Assembly (NCBI GenBank): GCA_027306505.1
Contig: DAHUZP010000072.1
Coordinates: 24,018 to 88,017 of the forward strand
Length of the DNA stretch: 64,000 nucleotides
Origin: Thermoplasmata archaeon
GTDB taxonomy: Archaea > Thermoplasmatota > Thermoplasmata > Lutacidiplasmatales > UBA184
Direction: 5' to 3'
Of this stretch, positions 49,748 to 63,826 are shown piece by piece. Within the stretch, counting starts at the first letter, position 1, and each line of letters starts with the position of its first letter. The position numbers were made by a program, and so were the translations under genes. A model generated the notes under the pieces. That model did not search any database. It had not been told where the DNA came from and was given only the letters and a program-made list of their open reading frames with translations.

Positions 49748-50710
49748 CTATCGGAAGAACGGTAGGGCGAACCAGCCCCAGTCGACGACCATGGCGAGCG
49801 CGACCCCGATCAAGTAGAACCCCGACGCGATGAACCCCCGGAGCGCCACCTTGCGGTCGACCCGGTGCAGAAGGGGCCAGGTCGTGGCGAGGAAGCCGAT
49901 ACCGAGCCCCATCGCGAGGACGAAAAACACGCGGTAGTTCACGGGCAGCAGGACGAAGGCCGCTGTGGGCACGAACAGCAGCACGGTCGAGGCGACCACG
50001 GTCCGACCCGACCGCTTGGGATCGCCAGGGACTGGGAGCATGGGCAGGTCGGTGCGGCCGTAGTCGTCCCTGAGGGCGACGGCGAGGGACCAGAAGTGCG
50101 GAGGGGTCCAGAGGAAGACGAGCACCGCGAGCAGGATCGCGGCCGTCGGGAAGGTGCCGGTGGCGGCAGCCGATCCCGCGAGGACGGGGGCACTGCCTGC
50201 GTAGCCCCCGATGACGATGTTCCAGCGCGTGCGCCGCTTGAGCCACATCGTGTAGATCCCCACGTAGACGACGGAGCCTGAGGCCATCGCCAGGGTCGCG
50301 AGCAGGTTGACCGTGAGGTAGGCGATAGGCAACGACAGCAAGGTGAGGGAGAGCCCCAGGGCCAGAACGGCCCGCGGCGAGACGAGGTCGGAGGGGAGCG
50401 GCCGCGAGCGCGTGCGCTTCATCTGGGCATCCAGGTCCCGGTCGTACCAGTGGTTGAGCGCAGCCGCTCCCCCGCTCGCCATGGCCCCCGCGACGAGGAT
50501 CCCCAAGAGCCGCTCCAAGGGCGGAGGGTAACCGGGGGCCGAGGCGAAGAACCCCGCTACGGCCATGAGCAGGATGAGCCCCGTGATACCGGGCTTGAGG
50601 AGGCTGAAGTAGTCCCCCAGGCCGGGGCGCGGGGTGGTCGTGGGCGGGGCGCTCATCGTGCCCCGAGCCAGCCCCGCTGAGGAGATAACCCCCATCCAGG
50701 AGCCGTTCAA
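49748..50710 (-). CDS. ctaB: Protoheme IX farnesyltransferase (heme O synthase)
   Basis: UbiA-family NHWYDRDLDAQMKRTRSRPLPSDLVSP; multiple TM helices; adjacent to ctaA/coxA. Start probably MSAPPTTTPRPG. Confidence 0.94.
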   Translation of the reverse strand: MNGSWMGVISSAGLARGTMSAPPTTTPRPGLGDYFSLLKPGITGLILLMAVAGFFASAPGYPPPLERLLGILVAGAMASGGAAALNHWYDRDLDAQMKRTRSRPLPSDLVSPRAVLALGLSLTLLSLPIAYLTVNLLATLAMASGSVVYVGIYTMWLKRRTRWNIVIGGYAGSAPVLAGSAAATGTFPTAAILLAVLVFLWTPPHFWSLAVALRDDYGRTDLPMLPVPGDPKRSGRTVVASTVLLFVPTAAFVLLPVNYRVFFVLAMGLGIGFLATTWPLLHRVDRKVALRGFIASGFYLIGVALAMVVDWGWFALPFFR

Positions 50711-50742: not shown

Positions 50743-51393
50743 CTATCGCCCGGAGGGGACGGAGGGAGCGGGGCCCGGGCCGTTTGTGTTCTCCTTCGAC
50801 CCTTTGGAGGTGGCACCTGCGAGGTGCTCGGGGTCGCAGGGGAGCCCTTCGGCCGGCGTGAGACGTCCCAGCAGTGCCGCCTGCCAGCGGGGTGGGAAGG
50901 CCGGGAAGTTGGCCAGCGCTGCGATGAGGATGAGGATCGCAAAGAGCAGGGTCGCGAGCCCCAGGTGGAGGACGACCGCGCTGAAGGCGGCGTCACTGAA
51001 GATGATGACCCCGCCGAGGAGCGCCTGGACGATCACCAGGGCGAAGGCGACGTCGGTCATCCGACGGACCCCCGGTCGGACCTGGCGGCTCGCATGGGCG
51101 AGGACGAGAAGTCCCAGGATGGCGAGGGAGAGCGTGAGCGCCCCCATGCGGTGCAGGAACTCCGCGGTCGCGGGGCCCCCCAGGGTGGGCACGGGGGCGC
51201 CGGGGTCGCATCCCGGCCAATTGGGGCAGACCAGAGGGTCGTTGGAGACCGTGACGTCCGCCCCGAGCAGGATCGTGAGGTAGCCGACCAGCGTGGCGAA
51301 CAGCGAGAGGTAGCGGAACGTCCGGCCCTCGGACCGTCGCGCGCCCGGAGTGCCCTCGACCTTTCCTCGCCCGACCTCGGGGCTCATGCCCAA
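50743..51393 (-). CDS. ctaA: Heme A synthase, short (half-size) archaeal CtaA/COX15-like
   Basis: [27 protein letters not shown] (CtaA loop cysteine pair), [13 protein letters not shown] and [12 protein letters not shown] His-bearing helices; only ~216 aa. Confidence 0.88.
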
Positions 51394-53714
51394 GGGTCCT
51401 CAGGGGCCGGCTTGCCGCGGTAGTAGCTCGCGACCATGTTGAAGATGAAGACCAGCACGCCGATCCCGAAGATCGTCGCACCGACGGTCGAGAGCTCGTT
51501 GAGCGTCCCCAGGTCGACCCCGATGGGGGTCGGGATGTAGGGGAGGTAGGTGTAGTAGCGCCGGGGCATCCCGGCCATTCCGTCGAAGAACATCGGGAAG
51601 AACAGCAGGTTCCCTCCGATGTAGGTGAGAGCGAAGTGCCAGAGCCCCAACTTGTGGCTGTACCAGCGCTTGGTGATGATGGGGTAGAAGAAGTAGGTCG
51701 CCGCGAAGACCCCCATGAGGCTCCCGCCCATGATCGTGTAGTGGAAGTGGGCCACGACGAAGTAGGTCTGGTGGACGAGGTAGTCGACCGGGATGGTCCC
51801 CAACATCACGCCGGAGAGACCACCGATGAGGAACATCGTGAGGAAGGCGATGATGAACCACATCGGGAGCTCCAGACGGACCCGCCCGCCCCAGATCGTG
51901 GCGAGCCAGTTGAACATCTTCACGCCGGTCGGGACGGCGATCGCGATGGTGGTGAGCATGAAGATGAACCGGGTGTTCGTGTTCTCCCCGGTCGTGAACA
52001 TGTGGTGCTGCCAGACCACGAACCCCAGGATCCCGATGGAGGCGATGGAGAGCGCCATCGCGGTGTAGCCGAAGAGGTGCTTGCGGACCATCTTCGGGAG
52101 GATCGTCGAGACCAGACCGAAGGCCGGCAGGATGAGGATGTAGACCTCCGGATGGCCGAAGAACCAGAACAGGTTCTGGTAGAGCAACGGACCTCCCAGC
52201 GGCGAGCCGTTCACGGCGTACGTGAGGTGCGTCCCGAAGTTGCGGTCCGAGAGGACCATCGTGAGGGCGACCGATAGGGAAGGCATCGCGGCGAGGACCA
52301 GGAAGCTGTTGATGAACGTGGACCAGACGAAGATGGGCATGTTCCAGTAGGTGATCCCCGGGGCGCGGTGCTTCATCACCGTGACCACGAAGTTGATCGC
52401 CCCCAGCATGGAGGAGATGGAGAGGAGGTGGAGCCCCGCGATCCAGATGTCGATCCCGTGCCCCGGCATGAGCGTGGTCAGAGGAACGTAACCGTACCAG
52501 CCCCCGTTCGCCCCGGAGAGGATGATCAGGACCGCCGCGGGCGGGATGAGCCAGAAGGCGAGGTTGTTGATCCGGGGCATCGCCATGTCCCGGGCGCCCA
52601 CCATCGTGGGCAGCAGGTAGTTCCCCCAACCGGCCATGAGGGGCATCACGACCAGGAAGATCATGATGATCCCATGCTCGGTGAAGAGCGTGGAATACAT
52701 GTCCGCCGAGATGCCGATCTGGTTCGGCGACATGCCGATCGCCGGCAGGAAGAGGTCGACGCGGATCAGCATCGCATAGATGCCGCCGATGACGAGGAAG
52801 ATGAACGCGGCGGCCATGTACATCAGGCCGATCTCCTTGTGGTCGGTCGTCGTGAGGTAATGGAGGACGTACCGGCGGAACCAGTACGGGAGCTCCCGGG
52901 TGCGCGCGAGCTTCTGAGCGGTGATGCCTCGCTCGCGGTAGGCCACGTCGAGGACGTGGAAGAGCAGCGCCGCCCCCAGCACCATGAGGCCCAGGGCGAA
53001 CCCGAGGGAGTCCTGCAGTCCGATCGCGGCTAGACTTCCCAGCGTCACCACGTAGCCCGCGAGGAGTCCCTCACCGGCGAGCAGCAACAGGATCCCGGCA
53101 AGGTAGTAGTCCAGGCGCCGGGAGATTCCCGTGGGGACCGTCTCGTAGGCGGGGTACCCGACGAACCCGTAGAAGCCCAGAAGGGCCCCCAGGGCAAAGG
53201 GGGCGAGCCCCACGATCCCGTAGGCCGACTGCATGTTCCCCGTGACGACCACGGAGATGCCGCCGGTCGTGGGGTCGGGGAAGACGCCGCCGTTCGACCC
53301 GGAGAGCTCGGTCGCCATGTTGACGCCGAGCGCGGTGCTCGGGGTCGTCGAGTTGATCACGAAGTACTGCCCTGGGGCGAGACCGAACTCGAACCCGCCC
53401 GCTGCGCCCTCGCCCACCGCGATGAGCCCCGTCGGCGTGAGACAGCGGGAGTCGGAGCAGGAGAAGACCTCCAGCACCGCGTTGGCCGGACCTCCGGTCC
53501 AGGAGACGTTGTACTGGACCGTGTCCGAGAGGGTGTAGGGGTCGGACATGCCCAGATGCGCCGCTCCCGCCATCTGGTTGCTGGGCACGCCGCCCGGGTA
53601 GCCCGGGCCCGAGCCGATCAGGGAGAAGCTCCAGGTCTGGTCCTGCGGGACCGCGACCAAGGCCGCCCCCACGGCGAGCAGCAGGATGCCCACCAGCAGA
53701 GCGCTGCGGATCAT
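51384..53714 (-). CDS. coxA: Heme-copper oxidase subunit I, type A1, with ~260 aa N-terminal membrane extension
   Basis: [74 protein letters not shown]; extension has ~4 hydrophobic helices before the core. Confidence 0.96.
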
Positions 53715-53724
53715 GCGTACCCCC

Positions 53725-54057
53725 TCATTCGAACATCTCCACGCGGCGGGTCAGGTTCCCTCGGAGACGGTCGACCCGGTAGAGGATCCCCACGGTGAGC
53801 CACAGACAGAAGAGCCCCCCCATGATCCCCAGGATCCCGACCGGGAGCCAGAGGAGCGCGGTGCCTCCGGCCCAGGCGACCGAAAGCGCGTAGATCCCCA
53901 CGATCGCCGAAGCGGCCCCGGCGACGTAGAGGCCGCTGAGGACGCCCCAGAGCACGCGGGTCCTGTAGCGCGGTGCCGGGGCGGCCGACCCCCCTTCGGC
54001 AGCAGCGGCGGCCTCTGGGGAGGAGCTCGGCTCCGGGACCGAGGCCCGCTTAGCCAT
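53725..54057 (-). CDS. Small two-TM membrane protein between cytochrome b and coxA
   Basis: [24 protein letters not shown] and [27 protein letters not shown]; start overlaps cytochrome b stop. Confidence 0.7.
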
Positions 54058-55540
54058 GCGTCACCGCCTCCCCCTTGGGGGGGACCGGTGCGAGGAGAGG
54101 AGCGCCAGAGGAGGTCGGTCCAGATGCGGGGGAGAGGGAGGCGGGGCGCGCTGCCGCGGGGCCGCTGGGAGATGGGAGGGAGGCGGGGGTGGTCGGGCGA
54201 GCGGACGCGGAGTGGGCGAGGGACCTGCGGCGGCCCTCCTTCGCTGCGACCCGGGCGCGGTAGCTCGCGCGATACATCATGTAGAGCGCGAAGATCACCA
54301 CGGCGTTGACGGCCGCGAGGGCGCCCAGGTAGGTCGCGTAGAACGCCGCCGGGATGACCACGCCCGGCATGATACCTCCCCAGACGGTCATCAGGATGAA
54401 GAACCCGACCAGGAAGTTCGCGACCCCCAGCATCACTGGTCGGTCCCGGGGATGGGTCTTGCGGCCCCCGTCCAGGAACGGGAAGATCTGGGAGATCCAG
54501 GGCAGGAACAGGATGAAGATGAGGACCGCCGTCACGGTGCCCACCGCGACGAACGGGCTCACGTACTGGAAGTCCGCGAGCTTGTAGAGCCACAGGAAGT
54601 ACCAGTCCGGCTCGGGAGAGGCGGCGGACGAGCTCGAAGAGCCGTAGTAGGCCGCGAGGGTGACCGGCCAAGCGGCGGCCATCATCACGAGCAGGCCCGC
54701 GTAGAAGAGGGCCCACTTGGTCATGTAGAAGAAGACCTTCGGGAAGAAGCGCCCCATCCGGTGGTCGTCCTCGTGGACGAGGACGCGCTTCGCCCGGGGG
54801 TCCGAGCTCGCGCGGGGGGAGATCCCGTGGATCTCGAAGAGCGAGATGTGGGCGTAGAGGAGCGCCGCCAGAGCTAGAGGGATCGCGACGACGTGGAGCG
54901 CGAACATCCGCGAGAGCAGTCCCTGGGGCGTCCCGTCCGCCAGGATCAGTTTCGCGGTCGGAGGACCGATGCCCGGCACCGAGAGGGTGAGCGCGATGCC
55001 CACGTCGGTCGCTCCCACCGATAGGGCAGTGTAGGGGAGGAGGTAGCCGGTGAAGCCCATCCCCAGCATGGCCGCCAGGAGCAGCGTTCCGATCATCCAG
55101 GAGAGTTCCCGCGGGGGCTTGTACACCCCGGCGTAGAAGCCGCGGAAGAAGTGGACGAAGGCGAGGAAGATCGTCGCGTACGCTCCGTATAAGTGGGCCG
55201 ATAACAGCAGCCAGCCCAGGGGCACGCCGTGGATGATGTAATTGGTCGAGGCCCACGCTTCCGGGGGCGCTCCGGCCGTCGCCGAGGCGGTCGAAGGGAC
55301 GTAGTAGAAGAGCAGCAGGAGGCCGGTCGTCACCTGGACGAGGAAGGCGTTCGCGACGAAGGCCCCTGTCCAGTACGAGGGATTGAAGGAGAAGTCCGGC
55401 TGCGGGCGCATCGCCCACTTCTCGGTCCCCACCCGCTTCTCGATGAAGGCCCAGATCGTGTCGAGCGTCCGGTTCATCGGCGGACGGTAGGGCGGGACGG
55501 AAGGGGGATGCCCGACGGTGGGGGCGTTGGGGGGAGTCAT
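54050..55540 (-). CDS. Cytochrome b of Rieske/cytochrome b complex (PDWY type)
   Basis: GWLLLSAHLYGAYATIFLAFVHFFRGFYAG, GYLLPYTALSVGATDVG, FALHVVAIPLALAALLYAHISLFEIHG heme His pairs; PEPDWYFLWLYK. Confidence 0.95.
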   Translation of the reverse strand: MTPPNAPTVGHPPSVPPYRPPMNRTLDTIWAFIEKRVGTEKWAMRPQPDFSFNPSYWTGAFVANAFLVQVTTGLLLLFYYVPSTASATAGAPPEAWASTNYIIHGVPLGWLLLSAHLYGAYATIFLAFVHFFRGFYAGVYKPPRELSWMIGTLLLAAMLGMGFTGYLLPYTALSVGATDVGIALTLSVPGIGPPTAKLILADGTPQGLLSRMFALHVVAIPLALAALLYAHISLFEIHGISPRASSDPRAKRVLVHEDDHRMGRFFPKVFFYMTKWALFYAGLLVMMAAAWPVTLAAYYGSSSSSAASPEPDWYFLWLYKLADFQYVSPFVAVGTVTAVLIFILFLPWISQIFPFLDGGRKTHPRDRPVMLGVANFLVGFFILMTVWGGIMPGVVIPAAFYATYLGALAAVNAVVIFALYMMYRASYRARVAAKEGRRRSLAHSASARPTTPASLPSPSGPAAARPASLSPASGPTSSGAPLLAPVPPKGEAVTHG

Positions 55541-55589: not shown

Positions 55590-56480
55590 CTACGGACAAC
55601 GCTGAGTGCTCCCGCTCGTGCCGTAGGGCGGCACCGACGTCTTGGCGAGCGGGGCCGGAACCGGTCCCGGGTTGCCCCCCAGGAGCGTCTGGAAGTGCCC
55701 CTTCACGTCGGGACCGATGTTTTTCACCGCGAAGATGTTCCCGCTCGTGTCGGTGTCGAGGATGACCTGAGGGAGCGGCGACACCGTCGGGCCGGTGAGG
55801 ATGTTCGCCCCTCCGCCCGAGACGTTGGACTGGACGTAGGGGTCGTAGGTCGACCCATGGCAGACGCAGTGCAGGAACGGGGCACCCCCGTTGTACTGGC
55901 ACTGCTCGGCCACGTTCGATGGATAGAAGCTCAGGAAGGGCGGGATGCAGCCGAGGTGCTGGCAGATCGCAGAGTACGCCACGACGAAGTTCCCGCCGGG
56001 GGTGGGGCCCAGCGCGGAGGGAGGCTTGCCGTACTTTCCCTGAAGGTTCAGCAGGAAGTTGGGCTCCCCATCGAGGGGATACTGGAAGAGGAAAGCGTCG
56101 GTGCTCGTCGGATCGATGTGGCTATCGATGTTCCCCACCTGGACCGGGGTCCCATCGGAGTAGAGGAGCTGGACCCGGGGGTAGGAAGCGAGCCCCTGCA
56201 TCGGAGGCTGAACGTACTGCAACGCAGCGCCTACGGCGCCCCCGGCCGCGACGGCCGCTAGACCGCCGATGGCCATGAGCTTCAGGATGTTGCGCTTCGA
56301 CTCGTCGACCTCCTCCTGGACCTTGGGGTCCTGGAGGTCCGGTGGCGCGACCTTTCGGACGACCCCGGGGGTCATCGGGCGCTTCATCTCGAGGAAGAAC
56401 GCGAGGCGTTCGTCGTAACTTCGCTGGTCGAAGCCGTGCCCGGGGACCCACTCGATCGCCGTTCCTCTCTCGTAGCTCAT
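55590..56480 (-). CDS. Rieske iron-sulfur protein
   Basis: CQHLGCIPPF...HCVCHGSTYDPY 2Fe-2S motifs; N-terminal ESKRNILKLMAIGGLAAVAAGGAVG. Confidence 0.95.
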   Translation of the reverse strand: MSYERGTAIEWVPGHGFDQRSYDERLAFFLEMKRPMTPGVVRKVAPPDLQDPKVQEEVDESKRNILKLMAIGGLAAVAAGGAVGAALQYVQPPMQGLASYPRVQLLYSDGTPVQVGNIDSHIDPTSTDAFLFQYPLDGEPNFLLNLQGKYGKPPSALGPTPGGNFVVAYSAICQHLGCIPPFLSFYPSNVAEQCQYNGGAPFLHCVCHGSTYDPYVQSNVSGGGANILTGPTVSPLPQVILDTDTSGNIFAVKNIGPDVKGHFQTLLGGNPGPVPAPLAKTSVPPYGTSGSTQRCP

Positions 56481-56923
56481 GGATGGGGACCTCCTTCCTC
56501 TTCCCAGCGTGCCGCCTCTTTCTCCTCTTCGTCGCGGCGGAGGCGCAACGCCAGCTCCTCCTCACCCGTGACCGGGACCTCTGAGGAGTCGCCGGGGAGC
56601 TCCGCGCGGTCGGCGTCGTGGTAGACGTAGAGGGTGATCGTGACCGATAGCACGATCACGAAGATCTCGGTGAGGTCGAGCATCTGGAAGCACGAGAACG
56701 GCCCGAAGGTCGTGTTGACGGGAGGAACGGGGCAGGAAGGTGGAGGGATGGTGTCGGCGGAGCTGGAGCTGCTGTTCGAACCGTTGACGCTCAGGGTGTG
56801 GAGGCCCGTGCCCCCGGTCGGTCCCAGGGGAGGCTCCCCGGAGGTCCCGAGGGCGGTCCAAGGAGAGAGGAAGGCGGAAAGAACGAGGGCCAGGGCCACC
56901 AATAGGAGCGCCGCCCGACTCAT
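56477..56923 (-). CDS. Exported single-TM hypothetical protein in Rieske/cyt b-tat operon
   Basis: Signal-like ALLLVALALVLSAFLSPWTALG, TM IFVIVLSVTITLYVYHDA; overlapping ATGA with Rieske start. Confidence 0.7.
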   Translation of the reverse strand: MSRAALLLVALALVLSAFLSPWTALGTSGEPPLGPTGGTGLHTLSVNGSNSSSSSADTIPPPSCPVPPVNTTFGPFSCFQMLDLTEIFVIVLSVTITLYVYHDADRAELPGDSSEVPVTGEEELALRLRRDEEEKEAARWEEEGGPHP

Positions 56924-57397: not shown

Positions 57398-58225
57398 CTA
57401 TGGCGGCCCTTCAGGGATGACGAGCAGGCGCGCCCTCTCGGAGAGGCGCGCGTGGCGTTCCGCCATGTACATCCCTCCGAAGTAGAGGCCCGACATGGGC
57501 GTCGCGATGAGGAGCATGGTGATCCCGGAGTTGTCGGGCGTGATGATCATCCCGAAGACGAGGCACCCCACGATCGCCCCCCTCCAGTGCTTGCGCCAGA
57601 AGGAGGCGGGGACCAGCCCCAGACGGGACAACGAGTAGACGAAGACGGGCAGCTCGAAGGCGATCCCGAAGGCGAGCGTGTAGAGCAGAGCGAACTCGAT
57701 GAAGCTCTCGGCCGACAGGACCGGGGCGAGGCCCATCGCCTGGAGGTACTTGAACAGGAGAAGGAAGGTGAAGGGCGTGAACCAGATCAGCCCGATCACG
57801 AACCCCACGAGGAAGAGGATCGTCGCGGGGATCCCCAGGGACTTCAGGAGCTCCCGCTCGTTGCGTCGCAGCGCCGGCAGGAGGAAGGCGCCGACCTCGT
57901 GGATGATCCAGGGCATCCCCACCGCGACGGTGAGCAGGATGCCGATCTCCATCTGGATGATCACCGGGTCGCCGACGCCGATGTTGATGAGCGTCTCCCC
58001 TGGGGGGAGCATGTCCGCGCGCATCCACGCGAAGACCTGGGCGGTCACGTTGTAGAACGGGCTGGGCCAGGGGTAGGGGACACCCCAGGGGATCCCCCCG
58101 ACGGTCTTCCAGCGGATCTCGAAGGTCAGGAAGAAGCCGAAGAGGGGGGCGAGAACGATCGTGATGCGGAGGGCTCGACGCCGGAGCTCGTCCAGGACCA
58201 AGAGGAGCTTCTTGAGCTCGCTCAT
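57398..58225 (-). CDS. tatC: Sec-independent protein translocase TatC
   Basis: DELRRRALRITIVLAPLFGFFLTF, MPWIIHEVGAFLLPALRRNERELLKSL, AFGIAFELPVFVYSLSRLGLV. Confidence 0.95.
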   Translation of the reverse strand: MSELKKLLLVLDELRRRALRITIVLAPLFGFFLTFEIRWKTVGGIPWGVPYPWPSPFYNVTAQVFAWMRADMLPPGETLINIGVGDPVIIQMEIGILLTVAVGMPWIIHEVGAFLLPALRRNERELLKSLGIPATILFLVGFVIGLIWFTPFTFLLLFKYLQAMGLAPVLSAESFIEFALLYTLAFGIAFELPVFVYSLSRLGLVPASFWRKHWRGAIVGCLVFGMIITPDNSGITMLLIATPMSGLYFGGMYMAERHARLSERARLLVIPEGPP

Positions 58226-59140: not shown

Positions 59141-59857
59141 TCAGTGCTCGTCGCCGCCCCGCAGGGTGGGCTCCGCCGAGTCGAGCGGTTCAGGCCGGGA
59201 GTCGTTGAAGTACTCCGGTCGGCTGGTGATCGGCGCATCCTTGGGGATCCCCATGTGGTGAGGCGAACGCTTCCCGTAGACGAGCCCGAGCACGATCGTG
59301 AGCACCGCGAGGGCGGTGATCGTGACGGTGATGTACCAGAACGGTTCGAACGAGGGGATCGCCGGGGAGGAGCTGGGGGCAGGCTCATTGACGTAGATCG
59401 TGCCGTACATTCCTGAGGCGTAGTGGTAGAGGCAAGTGAACTCGTAGGCCCCGGGCGTCGTGGGGAAGTGGAGCGTCGCGTGCAGGACGGAGACGGGGGA
59501 GCCGGTCCCGTTCAGGGGTTGGTTGTAGAGCAGGTTAGGGGCGGAGAAGAACGAGGTGCTGGTGGAGGAGGGATCGGACTGGTTGACCAGGCTCGAGACC
59601 GTGAAGGTGTGGGCAGTGGTCCCGGTGTTCTCCACGGTGAAAGTGGTGGTCGGGCAAACGTTCACGATCGCGGCGATGCTCCAGGTGAGCGCGTCGAAGG
59701 CTTCGACCGTGACGTTGCTGGTGCAGGGGCTCGACGATGTGGAGAGGGACGTACCGGTCTGCCCCTTGCCCATAGCGGGCCCGATGAGGGGCGTGGCCAG
59801 GAGCCCCAGAAGGAGCGTCACCAGCAGGAGCGAACCGATACGGACTGCTGAGCGCAT
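59141..59857 (-). CDS. Membrane-anchored blue copper protein (cupredoxin), C-terminal TM
   Basis: Type-1 Cu ligands in TTAHTFT and YEFTCLYHYASGMYG (C-x2-H-x4-M); TM YITVTITALAVLTIVLGLVYG; start MRSAVRIG at 59857. Confidence 0.92.
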   Translation of the reverse strand: MRSAVRIGSLLLVTLLLGLLATPLIGPAMGKGQTGTSLSTSSSPCTSNVTVEAFDALTWSIAAIVNVCPTTTFTVENTGTTAHTFTVSSLVNQSDPSSTSTSFFSAPNLLYNQPLNGTGSPVSVLHATLHFPTTPGAYEFTCLYHYASGMYGTIYVNEPAPSSSPAIPSFEPFWYITVTITALAVLTIVLGLVYGKRSPHHMGIPKDAPITSRPEYFNDSRPEPLDSAEPTLRGGDEH

Positions 59858-59976
59858 CCCCAGGTCTCTCCCTCGTTCGGCCTGGGGCGATGGCACGGCC
59901 CGCTGGTTAAAACCTCTGCGACCAAGGCCGCGTTCCCCAAGGGTCCGGGCCGCGCGGAGCATCCGCGGTCGGGGGC

Positions 59977-60693
59977 TCAAGGCCCAGCGCTGGAGGACGT
60001 GCTGGGGGATGGGGGGGCTGGCGGAGGTCGAGGCGGGGCTGGGCGCCCCGAGCCCGGTCCCCTTCGAGCATTGCTCCGCATCTCTCGCTCTTCCTTCGCC
60101 CGACCGCTCCGACCGTAGTAGAGGCCCGCGACGAAGGTGACCACGCTGAGGCCGACGACCGCGAAGACCACGAACCAGAACGGCTCGATGAGGGGAGCGG
60201 TCGGAGGCACGGGGGCCGTCATCAAGACCCAGATCTTGCCCCACATCCCGACGCCGTAGTGAGGGATGCAGGTGAACTGATAGTAACCGACACCCTGGAA
60301 GTGGATCGTGACGTGCAGCGTCGAGTCGGCGCTGCCGGTGGCATTGAGGTCGTGAGTGTAGTAGAGGTTGGGCCAGCTGAAGTACGACGCGGCCGAGGAC
60401 TCGTCGAGCGAGGGATCGGATTGGTTCAGCAGGTTCGAGACCGTGAAGGTGTGGGCGATGGAACCGGTGTTCGTCACGGTGAAGGAGACCGTGGAACAGA
60501 CCGGGCCGATGGTCGTCGAGCTCCACGTGAGGGAATCGTAGCCCGAGAGCGACACCGTGGACAGGCAGGTCGTGGCGGGCGATGCCTGTCCCGATGCAGT
60601 TGAGCCAGGCCCGCCCAGGTTAGCGAGGCCGTAGGCCGACAAGGCGAGCGCCGCGGTCAAGAGGATAATCGAGGCTCGGAATGCGCTTCGCAT
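59977..60693 (-). CDS. Membrane-anchored blue copper protein (cupredoxin), paralog of adjacent gene
   Basis: SIAHTFT and YQFTCIPHYGVGMWG (C-x2-H-x4-M); TM FVVFAVVGLSVVTFVAGLYYG; start MRSAFRAS. Confidence 0.92.
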   Translation of the reverse strand: MRSAFRASIILLTAALALSAYGLANLGGPGSTASGQASPATTCLSTVSLSGYDSLTWSSTTIGPVCSTVSFTVTNTGSIAHTFTVSNLLNQSDPSLDESSAASYFSWPNLYYTHDLNATGSADSTLHVTIHFQGVGYYQFTCIPHYGVGMWGKIWVLMTAPVPPTAPLIEPFWFVVFAVVGLSVVTFVAGLYYGRSGRAKEEREMRSNARRGPGSGRPAPPRPPPAPPSPSTSSSAGP

Positions 60694-60818: not shown

Positions 60819-60827
60819 GGTTTAATG
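60819..60827 (+). promoter_or_regulatory. TATA-like box of subunit II operon
   Basis: ggtttaatg centred ~28-31 nt upstream of GTG 60851/60854. Confidence 0.5.
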
Positions 60828-60850
60828 AGGATTGACGCTGCTAGGCCCGC

Positions 60851-61087
60851 GTGGTGAGCCCGCTCGCGTCGTGGACAGGGCCGCTGGTCCGCACCGCCCT
60901 TCAGACCCCCCTACAGCTCACGCAGTTCCTCTTCTGGTACGTCTTCCTGCTCGCCCTCGGCGTGGGGATTGTCTACGTCCTGCTGCTCCTCTGGGCGCTC
61001 GCGAAGCACATCTCCCATGAGCCTCTCGCCAGGGACCGTCCCACGAAACCCTCCCGAGGACCGGAGCGGCCTCCCGCGATGAGGTAG
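60851..61087 (+). CDS. Single-TM small protein immediately upstream of oxidase subunit II; candidate detached TM1 of subunit II
   Basis: 78 aa with one TM (TQFLFWYVFLLALGVGIVYVLLLLWALAKH) resembling COX2 TM1; own TATA box; 4 nt gap to coxB. Confidence 0.75.
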   Translation: MVSPLASWTGPLVRTALQTPLQLTQFLFWYVFLLALGVGIVYVLLLLWALAKHISHEPLARDRPTKPSRGPERPPAMR

Positions 61088-61091
61088 GACC

Positions 61092-61772
61092 ATGAAGGGA
61101 GAGAGCTCGAGCCTGCCCGACGTCCCGCCCATCCCCTCCAAGCCGCTCGCTTCCCCCTCCGCCTCGTCGGCCAAGGAGAGCGCGGCACCGAAGGGCGAGG
61201 CCGCTCTTCCTTCCCCCCCGCGGGGAGCGCTCCCCACGCAGAGCTCGCGTGCTCGGGCCACAGCGAGCCACCGACGCTGGAAGCAGATCGAATGGGCCTG
61301 GACCCTCATCCCCGTCGCGATGCTCCTCAGCGTCGCTGGCCTCACCGTGGGGGTCCTCTACAACCTCGACACGGGGCCCACCGCCTACGGCGCGACCCCC
61401 AACTGGTATGTGAACGTCACCGGTCAGCAGTTCTACTGGAGCTTCACCTACACTTCCCCCTACGCCCAGGAAGTGTTCAAGACCTACAACGTGACCAACG
61501 AGAGCTCCGTCCTCTGGATCCCCCAGAACGCGGTGGTCTGGCTCAACGTGACCTCCGTGGACGTGGTCCACTCCTTCAACATTCCCCAGCTCGGCGTCCG
61601 CATCGATGCGATCCCGGGAAGGATCAACCACTACTGGTTCACGATCCCCCAGGGCGCACAGCCCGGCCAGGAGTACCTCATCCAGTGCACGGAGTTCTGC
61701 GGCCAGGGTCACTACAGCATGATCGCCTACGTGATGGTGGGCAAGAGCAGCGGGCTCCTGCCGCCCAACTGA
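61092..61772 (+). CDS. coxB: Heme-copper oxidase subunit II with complete CuA site
   Basis: VDVVHSFNIPQLGVRIDAIPGRIN and CTEFCGQGHYSMIAYVMV (C-x3-C-x3-H-x2-M); single TM WKQIEWAWTLIPVAMLLSVAGLTVGVLYN. Confidence 0.95.
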   Translation: MKGESSSLPDVPPIPSKPLASPSASSAKESAAPKGEAALPSPPRGALPTQSSRARATASHRRWKQIEWAWTLIPVAMLLSVAGLTVGVLYNLDTGPTAYGATPNWYVNVTGQQFYWSFTYTSPYAQEVFKTYNVTNESSVLWIPQNAVVWLNVTSVDVVHSFNIPQLGVRIDAIPGRINHYWFTIPQGAQPGQEYLIQCTEFCGQGHYSMIAYVMVGKSSGLLPPN

Positions 61773-62430: not shown

Positions 62431-63489
62431 TCAGTCCTTGGAGGCGGGGCGCTGAGCCGGGGCGGCCGAGACCGCGCGTTCGTTCTGGCCCATGAGGACC
62501 AGGAACGCGGCCCCGCCGATGACCACGGCACCCAGGGCGAGGTAGGCGTATTGGATGACGCCCTGCATCTGAGGGATGCTCGCGGCCGGGGTGGGCGCGA
62601 CCCCGACGTAGAGGTGCCCCCACATCCCGGACTGGAAATGCCCTGGGACCAGGCAGACGAACCAGTAGATGCCGGCCTGAGGGATGATCGTGGGGGGAGA
62701 GGTCCAGGTGGTCCCCGGGTCCTGGAAGCCGGAGTCCAGGAGCGGCTTGTTCAGGCAGGCGTCGTTGCTGGGGAGCGCGACCCCCGTCACGATGTTGCTG
62801 TCGTTGGAACAGGCATCGAGGGTGAAGGTGTGCTGGTAGCCCTGTACCCCGAAGACCACGATGAGGGGGATCCCGGGGCTGACCGTCGCGACGTTGGGGA
62901 CGAAGGTGATCTGAGCGGTACCGTTGACGAACAGGTACTGGCGGCTCGCCGAGCCGGGAGGGAGGACGTGGAGGCTGGCGAAGAAGTTCGCGCTGAGGTA
63001 GGGGTAGTACGCGACGATCTCGTAGGTGCCGGCGGTGGTGATGTTGAGCACGACCGTCTGGTTCGTCCCCGGGGCGAGCCACACGCTCGTGAGGTTGTGG
63101 CCGTTGAGCGTCGCGTTGAGCGAGGACGGCGTGGAGGCATTGGCGGAGCTGATGACCCCGTTCGGGACCGAGTACACCACGAAGGAGTGGTCGACGGAGC
63201 CGTTGTTCCAGAGACCGATGGAGAGGGGGGCGTCCGCCGTCACGACGTTGGAGCTCGTGCCGAAGTAGAAGCCGGGGGAGGTGTCGTTGAGCAGGAGATG
63301 GATATAGAAGGTGGAGGCGACCAGCGGTTTGGCCGCCGCGACCGCCCCGTTCGGCGGGATCGCGCCGTAGTGGGCCGCGACGGGGAGGAAGGCGGCACCG
63401 CCCAGGGCGGCCAGGACGAGCAGGGTGGAAATGACCCCGCGACGGGAACGGATGCGCTCCCCCAGGCCCGACCGCCACGCCCGACGCAT
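62431..63489 (-). CDS. Tandem-cupredoxin membrane-anchored protein; C-terminal domain sulfocyanin/rusticyanin-like
   Basis: QHTFTLDAC and YWFVCLVPGHFQSGMWGHL (C-x4-H-x4-M); TM at both ends; start MRRAWRSG at 63489 lies 27 nt after TATA-like GTTATCAAGG. Confidence 0.9.
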   Translation of the reverse strand: MRRAWRSGLGERIRSRRGVISTLLVLAALGGAAFLPVAAHYGAIPPNGAVAAAKPLVASTFYIHLLLNDTSPGFYFGTSSNVVTADAPLSIGLWNNGSVDHSFVVYSVPNGVISSANASTPSSLNATLNGHNLTSVWLAPGTNQTVVLNITTAGTYEIVAYYPYLSANFFASLHVLPPGSASRQYLFVNGTAQITFVPNVATVSPGIPLIVVFGVQGYQHTFTLDACSNDSNIVTGVALPSNDACLNKPLLDSGFQDPGTTWTSPPTIIPQAGIYWFVCLVPGHFQSGMWGHLYVGVAPTPAASIPQMQGVIQYAYLALGAVVIGGAAFLVLMGQNERAVSAAPAQRPASKD

Positions 63490-63556
63490 CGGCCCGCGCG
63501 ACCTCGTTCTCCTTGATAACGGTGCCGTGGTCGCGGAGTTTGGGACAAAGCCCCCC

Positions 63557-63826
63557 CTATCCGGCGGGGCGACGTAGGCGTCTCCACTCACGAGGCTGCA
63601 GCACCACCGTCCACCCGTAGACCTCCTTGACGAACTGCTGCAGGAGTTCCACCACGCGCTCCCGGTCCTCCACCCTTACGATCAGCACGCCCCGCTTGAT
63701 TCTCCAGTGCGGGAGGCCCTCCAGGAGCCCGCGACGAGGATACTGCCGCCCTCGGGTCGTGGTCTCCTGTCCGTGCAGCTTCTGGGAGAGCATGTTGGCC
63801 CGACCCGGGCTAGCCCCCGAGTTCAC
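63557..63826 (-). CDS. Small basic hypothetical protein
   Basis: 89 aa; HWRIKRGVLIVRVEDRERVVELLQQFVKEVYGWTVVLQPREWRRL; family not recognised. Confidence 0.5.
   Translation of the reverse strand: MNSGASPGRANMLSQKLHGQETTTRGRQYPRRGLLEGLPHWRIKRGVLIVRVEDRERVVELLQQFVKEVYGWTVVLQPREWRRLRRPAG

Follow-up and report, generated by a model that had tools for sequence, protein, structure and literature searches.

The window analysed here, the whole stretch of 64,000 nucleotides, is part of a 2.96 Mb draft genome of a member of the Lutacidiplasmatales (Thermoplasmata), an archaeal order from soil. Two adjacent genes on its forward strand are the subject of this work: ORF1 (60851..61087, +), which has a GTG start and encodes 78 aa, and ORF2 (coxB; 61092..61772, +), which encodes 226 aa and carries the CuA domain of oxidase subunit II. 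The named relatives of ORF2 are found in Thermoplasmata MAGs, including Candidatus Lutacidiplasma silvani and UBA184, and these are the Lutacidiplasmatales whose complex IV locus, with an A1-type coxA, complex III, Tat and cupredoxins, has been described (PMC9287336). The main text of that paper reports coxB without mentioning a split and lists six proteins with no known function at this locus, five of them with transmembrane (TM) domains; ORF1 may be one of these six.

The surrounding genes, all on the reverse strand, form a cluster for complexes III and IV that is kept across genera. It comprises a ctaB-like UbiA prenyltransferase gene (49748..50710), ctaA for haem A synthase (50743..51393; half-length match to COX15-CtaA), coxA for subunit I (51384..53714; PF00115, E = 1.9e-142), cytochrome b of complex III (54050..55540), a Rieske-type iron-sulfur protein (55590..56480), assigned on a weak Pfam match just under the cut-off and its conserved position in the cluster, and TatC (57398..58225). 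Three further genes encode copper proteins: a membrane-anchored blue copper protein divergent from ORF1 (59977..60693; PF00127, 2e-5), a second blue copper protein with an approximate start (59141..59884; PF00127, 2.8e-4) and a sulfocyanin-like protein (62431..63591; PF06525, 8.9e-5). Two small membrane proteins at 53725-54057 and 56477-56923, without a family match above cut-off, are also present in the cluster of many relatives and are possible extra subunits. COX3 (PF00510) was not found in the window's family and matched in one of 41 genomes (the window's own and 40 relatives), namely G047 of another family. Since Pfam gave no cytochrome c match in the window's own genome, the blue copper proteins probably donate electrons to the oxidase, in agreement with the discussion of PMC9287336.

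Subunit I (P0001) contains HPEVY at 521, DMAMP at 376 and KMFNW at 599, and its nearest PDB chains are A-type. Judged by the GHPEVY motif together with the D- and K-channel motifs, the Lutacidiplasmatales oxidase is A1-type. The window's coxA has an N-terminal extension of ~288 aa with four predicted helices, common to G001 of the same genus; in two other genomes checked, the N-terminus is only ~40 aa with one helix.

ORF2, ORF1 and their conservation

ORF2 has the properties of the distal part of an A-type subunit II. It matches Pfam COX2 with E = 8.4e-18 over aa 107-211 and NCBIfam TIGR02866 (CoxB) at positions 47-191 of 202. All six CuA ligands (H160, C199, E201, C203, H207 and M210) are present in its cupredoxin domain (61410..61724, +) and invariant across 28 homologues. 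Instead of the two N-terminal helices that an A-type CoxB holds in one polypeptide, ORF2 has a single hydrophobic segment (aa 71-89; 61302..61358, +) at IEWAWTLIP, which we take to be a motif typical of TM2, and Pfam COX2_TM does not match it. A low-complexity lead of ~60 aa, rich in Ser, Pro and Ala, stands ahead of this helix. The predicted structure (mean pLDDT 79.5) consists of a single long helix and a cupredoxin; among its PDB matches, A-type subunit II chains rank first and ba3 subunit II lower.

ORF1 likewise has a single hydrophobic segment (aa 31-49, mean KD 2.7; 60941..60997, +), followed by a C-terminal tail rich in Pro and Arg. It ends exactly 4 nt before ORF2 (TAG GACC ATG) and is preceded by a TATA-like box. 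An earlier sequence-only reading of the window had placed the two genes and the gap correctly, and its description of a 78-aa ORF with one TM segment and a well-placed TATA box, followed by a coxB with intact CuA ligands and only a helix of the TM2 pattern, holds in each of these points.

The co-conservation in relatives by which that reading proposed to check the pair is complete: ORF1 immediately precedes a one-TM coxB within the same complex III/IV cluster at 69 of 69 assessable named loci, that is, those with an intact upstream region (two more are cut by contig ends). Relatives of ORF1 detected by sequence adjoin coxB in G001-G004, G009, G014 and G019, and inspection of the region upstream of coxB irrespective of sequence similarity revealed a small one-helix gene in further genomes. 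No ORF1 homologues away from coxB, which the same reading had named as evidence against itself, were found at meaningful E-values. As judged from substitution rates, ORF1 is under purifying selection in closer pairs, with a dN/dS of 0.12-0.29 (0.26-0.58 in distant pairs, where synonymous divergence is high). Its place beside coxB in every relative searched, combined with these low ratios, indicates that ORF1 is more than a chance ORF. A further one-TM coxB-like paralogue (ICTVPCGPGHSGM) stands by itself elsewhere in the genome at loci L047 and L048 (G002 and G001), where no TM1 partner was recognised beside it.

Relationship of ORF1 to TM1 of subunit II

Our main reading, to which we give a probability of nearly nine in ten, is that two genes here encode what is canonically one two-helix subunit II of an A1-type (aa3-like) oxidase, with ORF1 supplying TM1 and ORF2 supplying TM2 and the CuA domain. 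The small gene had already been proposed to be TM1, a proposal now supported by the profile positions of its relatives, a decoy test and helix polarity. The suggested alignment to the COX2 families succeeded for ORF2 and failed for the window's ORF1, which alone gave no useful match in Pfam or NCBIfam, being too diverged; its identity as TM1 therefore rests mainly on its relatives. Among 29 ORF1 proteins, 19 match TIGR02866, the best at 5e-4 and far under the family cut-off; where the alignment was inspected, it covers profile positions 3-44 of 202. The TIGR02866 match of the relatives' ORF2 proteins begins at 54 (47 in the window), which puts the break at about 45-53, the TM1-TM2 loop. When ORF1 and ORF2 were joined in silico, one uninterrupted match resulted, from 3-9 to 188-191 (e.g. 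8-188), and the joined proteins scored 127-143 bits versus 108-120 bits for the ORF2 halves, a gain of 18-26 bits. COX2_TM stayed under its cut-off on the joined proteins, at 0.0012 to 0.1 in three of five and absent in the other two. The C-terminus of ORF1 resembles ..YALWKFRDPATRRRRYG in most genera and the N-terminus of ORF2 resembles MVNKLEVAWTL.., and these ends read as the two sides of the canonical TM1-TM2 loop. The joined ORFs are thus collinear with canonical A-type subunit II as known from Paracoccus, Rhodobacter and mitochondrial COX2 (TM1, TM2, CuA and six ligands; TIGR02866, PF02790 and PF00116), which is one polypeptide where the Lutacidiplasmatales have two genes.

In a profile-profile comparison, ORF1 scored 27.2 against TM1 of alphaproteobacterial COX2, whereas none of 27 decoy helices, taken from proteins of the same genomes such as cytochrome b, coxA, TatC, Rieske and cupredoxins, exceeded 19.5. 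The hhalign probability of ORF1 against bacterial TM1 is low (24%), as expected because only ~25 columns are compared. A PDB search with the ORF1 profile gave COX2 TM1 as a non-significant match ranked behind TatC, which counts as a hint only; TatC scores about level with COX2 for some ORF1 members, and the scores of a lone helix are weak. Lys and Arg are more numerous after the helix than before it in 28 of the 29 ORF1 proteins and fewer in none, and ORF2 shows the mirror image. By the positive-inside rule, this charge pattern predicts an N-out/C-in orientation for ORF1, like that of canonical TM1.

The orientation bears directly on a very unlikely alternative, that ORF1 corresponds to subunit IIa (CbaD) of B-type ba3 oxidases and is an accessory helix of separate evolutionary origin that fills the TM1 site. 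In Thermus thermophilus and Aquifex aeolicus, IIa is encoded by a small gene upstream of a one-TM subunit II; it takes the site of A-type TM1 in an inverted orientation and is reported to have no sequence similarity to TM1 (PMC3141039, PMC3128077). Like IIa, ORF1 has a small gene of its own immediately before that of a one-TM subunit II, and its size is similar to that of archaeal IIa proteins (53-78 aa; PMC3128077). The predicted polarity of ORF1, however, is that of TM1 and not inverted (28 of 29), the IIa motif P-x(1-3)-G-[TA] is present in only two of 29 ORF1 proteins, ORF1 members match the very CoxB N-terminus to which IIa is reported to be dissimilar, and subunit I at the ORF1 locus is A1, not B-type.

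It is highly improbable, too, that ORF2 has simply lost TM1 and that ORF1 encodes an assembly factor or another small oxidase subunit (subunit IV-like) unrelated to TM1. Single-helix proteins do match many families weakly, and in relatives within the class a normal coxB is preceded by a different one-TM protein, of 54-56 aa, but the ORF1 matches are specifically placed on the CoxB profile, ORF1 beat all decoy helices, its topology is complementary to that of ORF2, and it is constantly paired with a one-TM coxB.

The ORF1-ORF2 junction and a model of expression and assembly

The distance from the ORF1 stop to the ORF2 start is -8 in most genera, -4 in some and +3, +4 (the window) or +6 in others, so that all three frame relations are seen, including in-frame cases with an intervening TGA. 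Because the frame relation varies between lineages, two polypeptides are expected, and a conserved frameshift cannot be the general mechanism; the fusing frameshift against which the sequence-only reading had cautioned did not appear in that role. The least probable reading, that ORF1 and ORF2 are made as one subunit II through programmed frameshifting or readthrough, can draw on the 8-nt overlap (TATGGTTAA) that most genera retain and that places ORF2 in the +1 frame, on three genomes with ACG replacing the ORF2 ATG and on the full-length COX2 match of the joined proteins, but the offsets of +4, +3, +6 or -4 in three genera, including that of the window, give +1, in-frame-with-TGA or -1 relations, and the Ser/Pro/Ala-rich lead of ORF2 and the Pro/Arg tail of ORF1 would be unexpected in a fused loop.

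At loci L106, L121 and L126, the junction reads TACGGTTA[AG]C in place of TATGGTTA[AG]C, which turns the ORF2 ATG into ACG; the change is silent for ORF1, and coxB is otherwise intact.

The TATA-like box TTTAATGA (60821..60828, +), centred ~26 nt before the ORF1 GTG, is presumed to be the single promoter of both genes. An A/T-rich box, typically AATATGTA or ATATGTAG, is found in 65 relatives at 21-30 nt (mostly 25-27) before an in-frame start, with GTG as the usual ORF1 start codon. A spacing of 25-27 nt from box to start is that expected for a leaderless archaeal transcript. The spacing thus suggests a leaderless mRNA, probably carrying both ORF1 and ORF2, and the overlap or close spacing of the two genes suggests coupling of termination and reinitiation.

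Taken as two genes for one subunit, ORF1 and ORF2 fit the following model. The break in subunit II would fall within the cytoplasmic TM1-TM2 loop, with ORF1 giving TM1, its N-terminus outside and its C-terminus inside, and ORF2 giving TM2 and the outward-facing CuA domain. Both would be translated from one leaderless mRNA by coupled termination and restart. Their helices would then pair beside subunit I and restore the two-helix anchor, with the ORF1 helix at the TM1 position of the assembled oxidase, and electrons would pass from the clustered blue copper proteins to CuA and on to subunit I.

Split subunits II in other lineages and their meaning

A natural division of subunit II into complementary proteins is also known from the mitochondrial COX2A/COX2B of chlorophycean algae, apicomplexans and the wasp Campsomeris (PMC5374615). 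The break in Campsomeris cox2 lies after both helices and before the CuA half (PMC5374615), whereas that of the Lutacidiplasmatales lies in the TM1-TM2 loop. The open-licence literature yielded no account of an A1-type oxidase whose subunit II is divided between TM1 and TM2.

A second split system occurs within the same class, in families f19 and f24, which are probably Thermoplasmatales. Here, a gene for an 82-aa two-helix protein is followed by that for a ~148-aa one-TM CuA subunit II and by coxA (L177-L192), and usually overlaps the subunit II gene by 4 nt. The second helix of the 82-aa protein matches the ORF1 profile with 81% probability and a score of 31.1, versus at most 21.9 for decoys. 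Subunit I of this group is divergent, with HP[IVL]VY lacking the glutamate of HPEVY, and is far from the Lutacidiplasmatales clade in the coxA tree. An assignment to B-type ba3 on the basis of HP[IVL]VY was considered and rejected, the nearest PDB chains being A-type (214 bits, versus ~62 bits for ba3).

Unsplit subunits II with two or three helices were found in genus g3, which belongs to the family of the f19/f24 group, in family f11 and in the other members of the phylum inspected. A comparison of loci L049 and L051 with L050, L053, L054 and L055 further showed that a separate 54-56-aa one-TM protein precedes a two-TM coxB in f11, and that a similar one-TM segment is apparently fused to the coxB N-terminus in g3, giving three helices. 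As for a single ancestral split behind both ORF1 and the small f19/f24 protein, the coxA tree sets the two groups far apart and needs two changes, but the AU test does not reject one origin (p = 0.097). The split would be either recurrent or older than both lineages. That a break in the TM1/TM2 loop arose independently twice in Thermoplasmata, in the A1-type oxidase of the Lutacidiplasmatales and in the divergent oxidase of f19/f24, is a tentative reading to which we give somewhat less than even odds.

Subunit II is among the most conserved parts of the respiratory chain and is nearly always a single polypeptide. Read as TM1 and TM2 on separate genes, the Lutacidiplasmatales enzyme is a variation on a known oxidase rather than a novel type of system. 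No family model matches the small gene above cut-off, and the present results suggest that for this reason one half of a core respiratory subunit is overlooked throughout an order. ORF1 would be the TM1-like, normally oriented counterpart to the inverted IIa of B-type enzymes, and should two independent splits be confirmed, TM1 would emerge as a repeatedly detachable module that links the TM1 of A-type oxidases with the separate helix of B-type oxidases. A stable, order-wide split between TM1 and TM2 would demonstrate that subunit II can receive its TM1 in trans, and the split subunit II would offer a natural system for testing its insertion and assembly.
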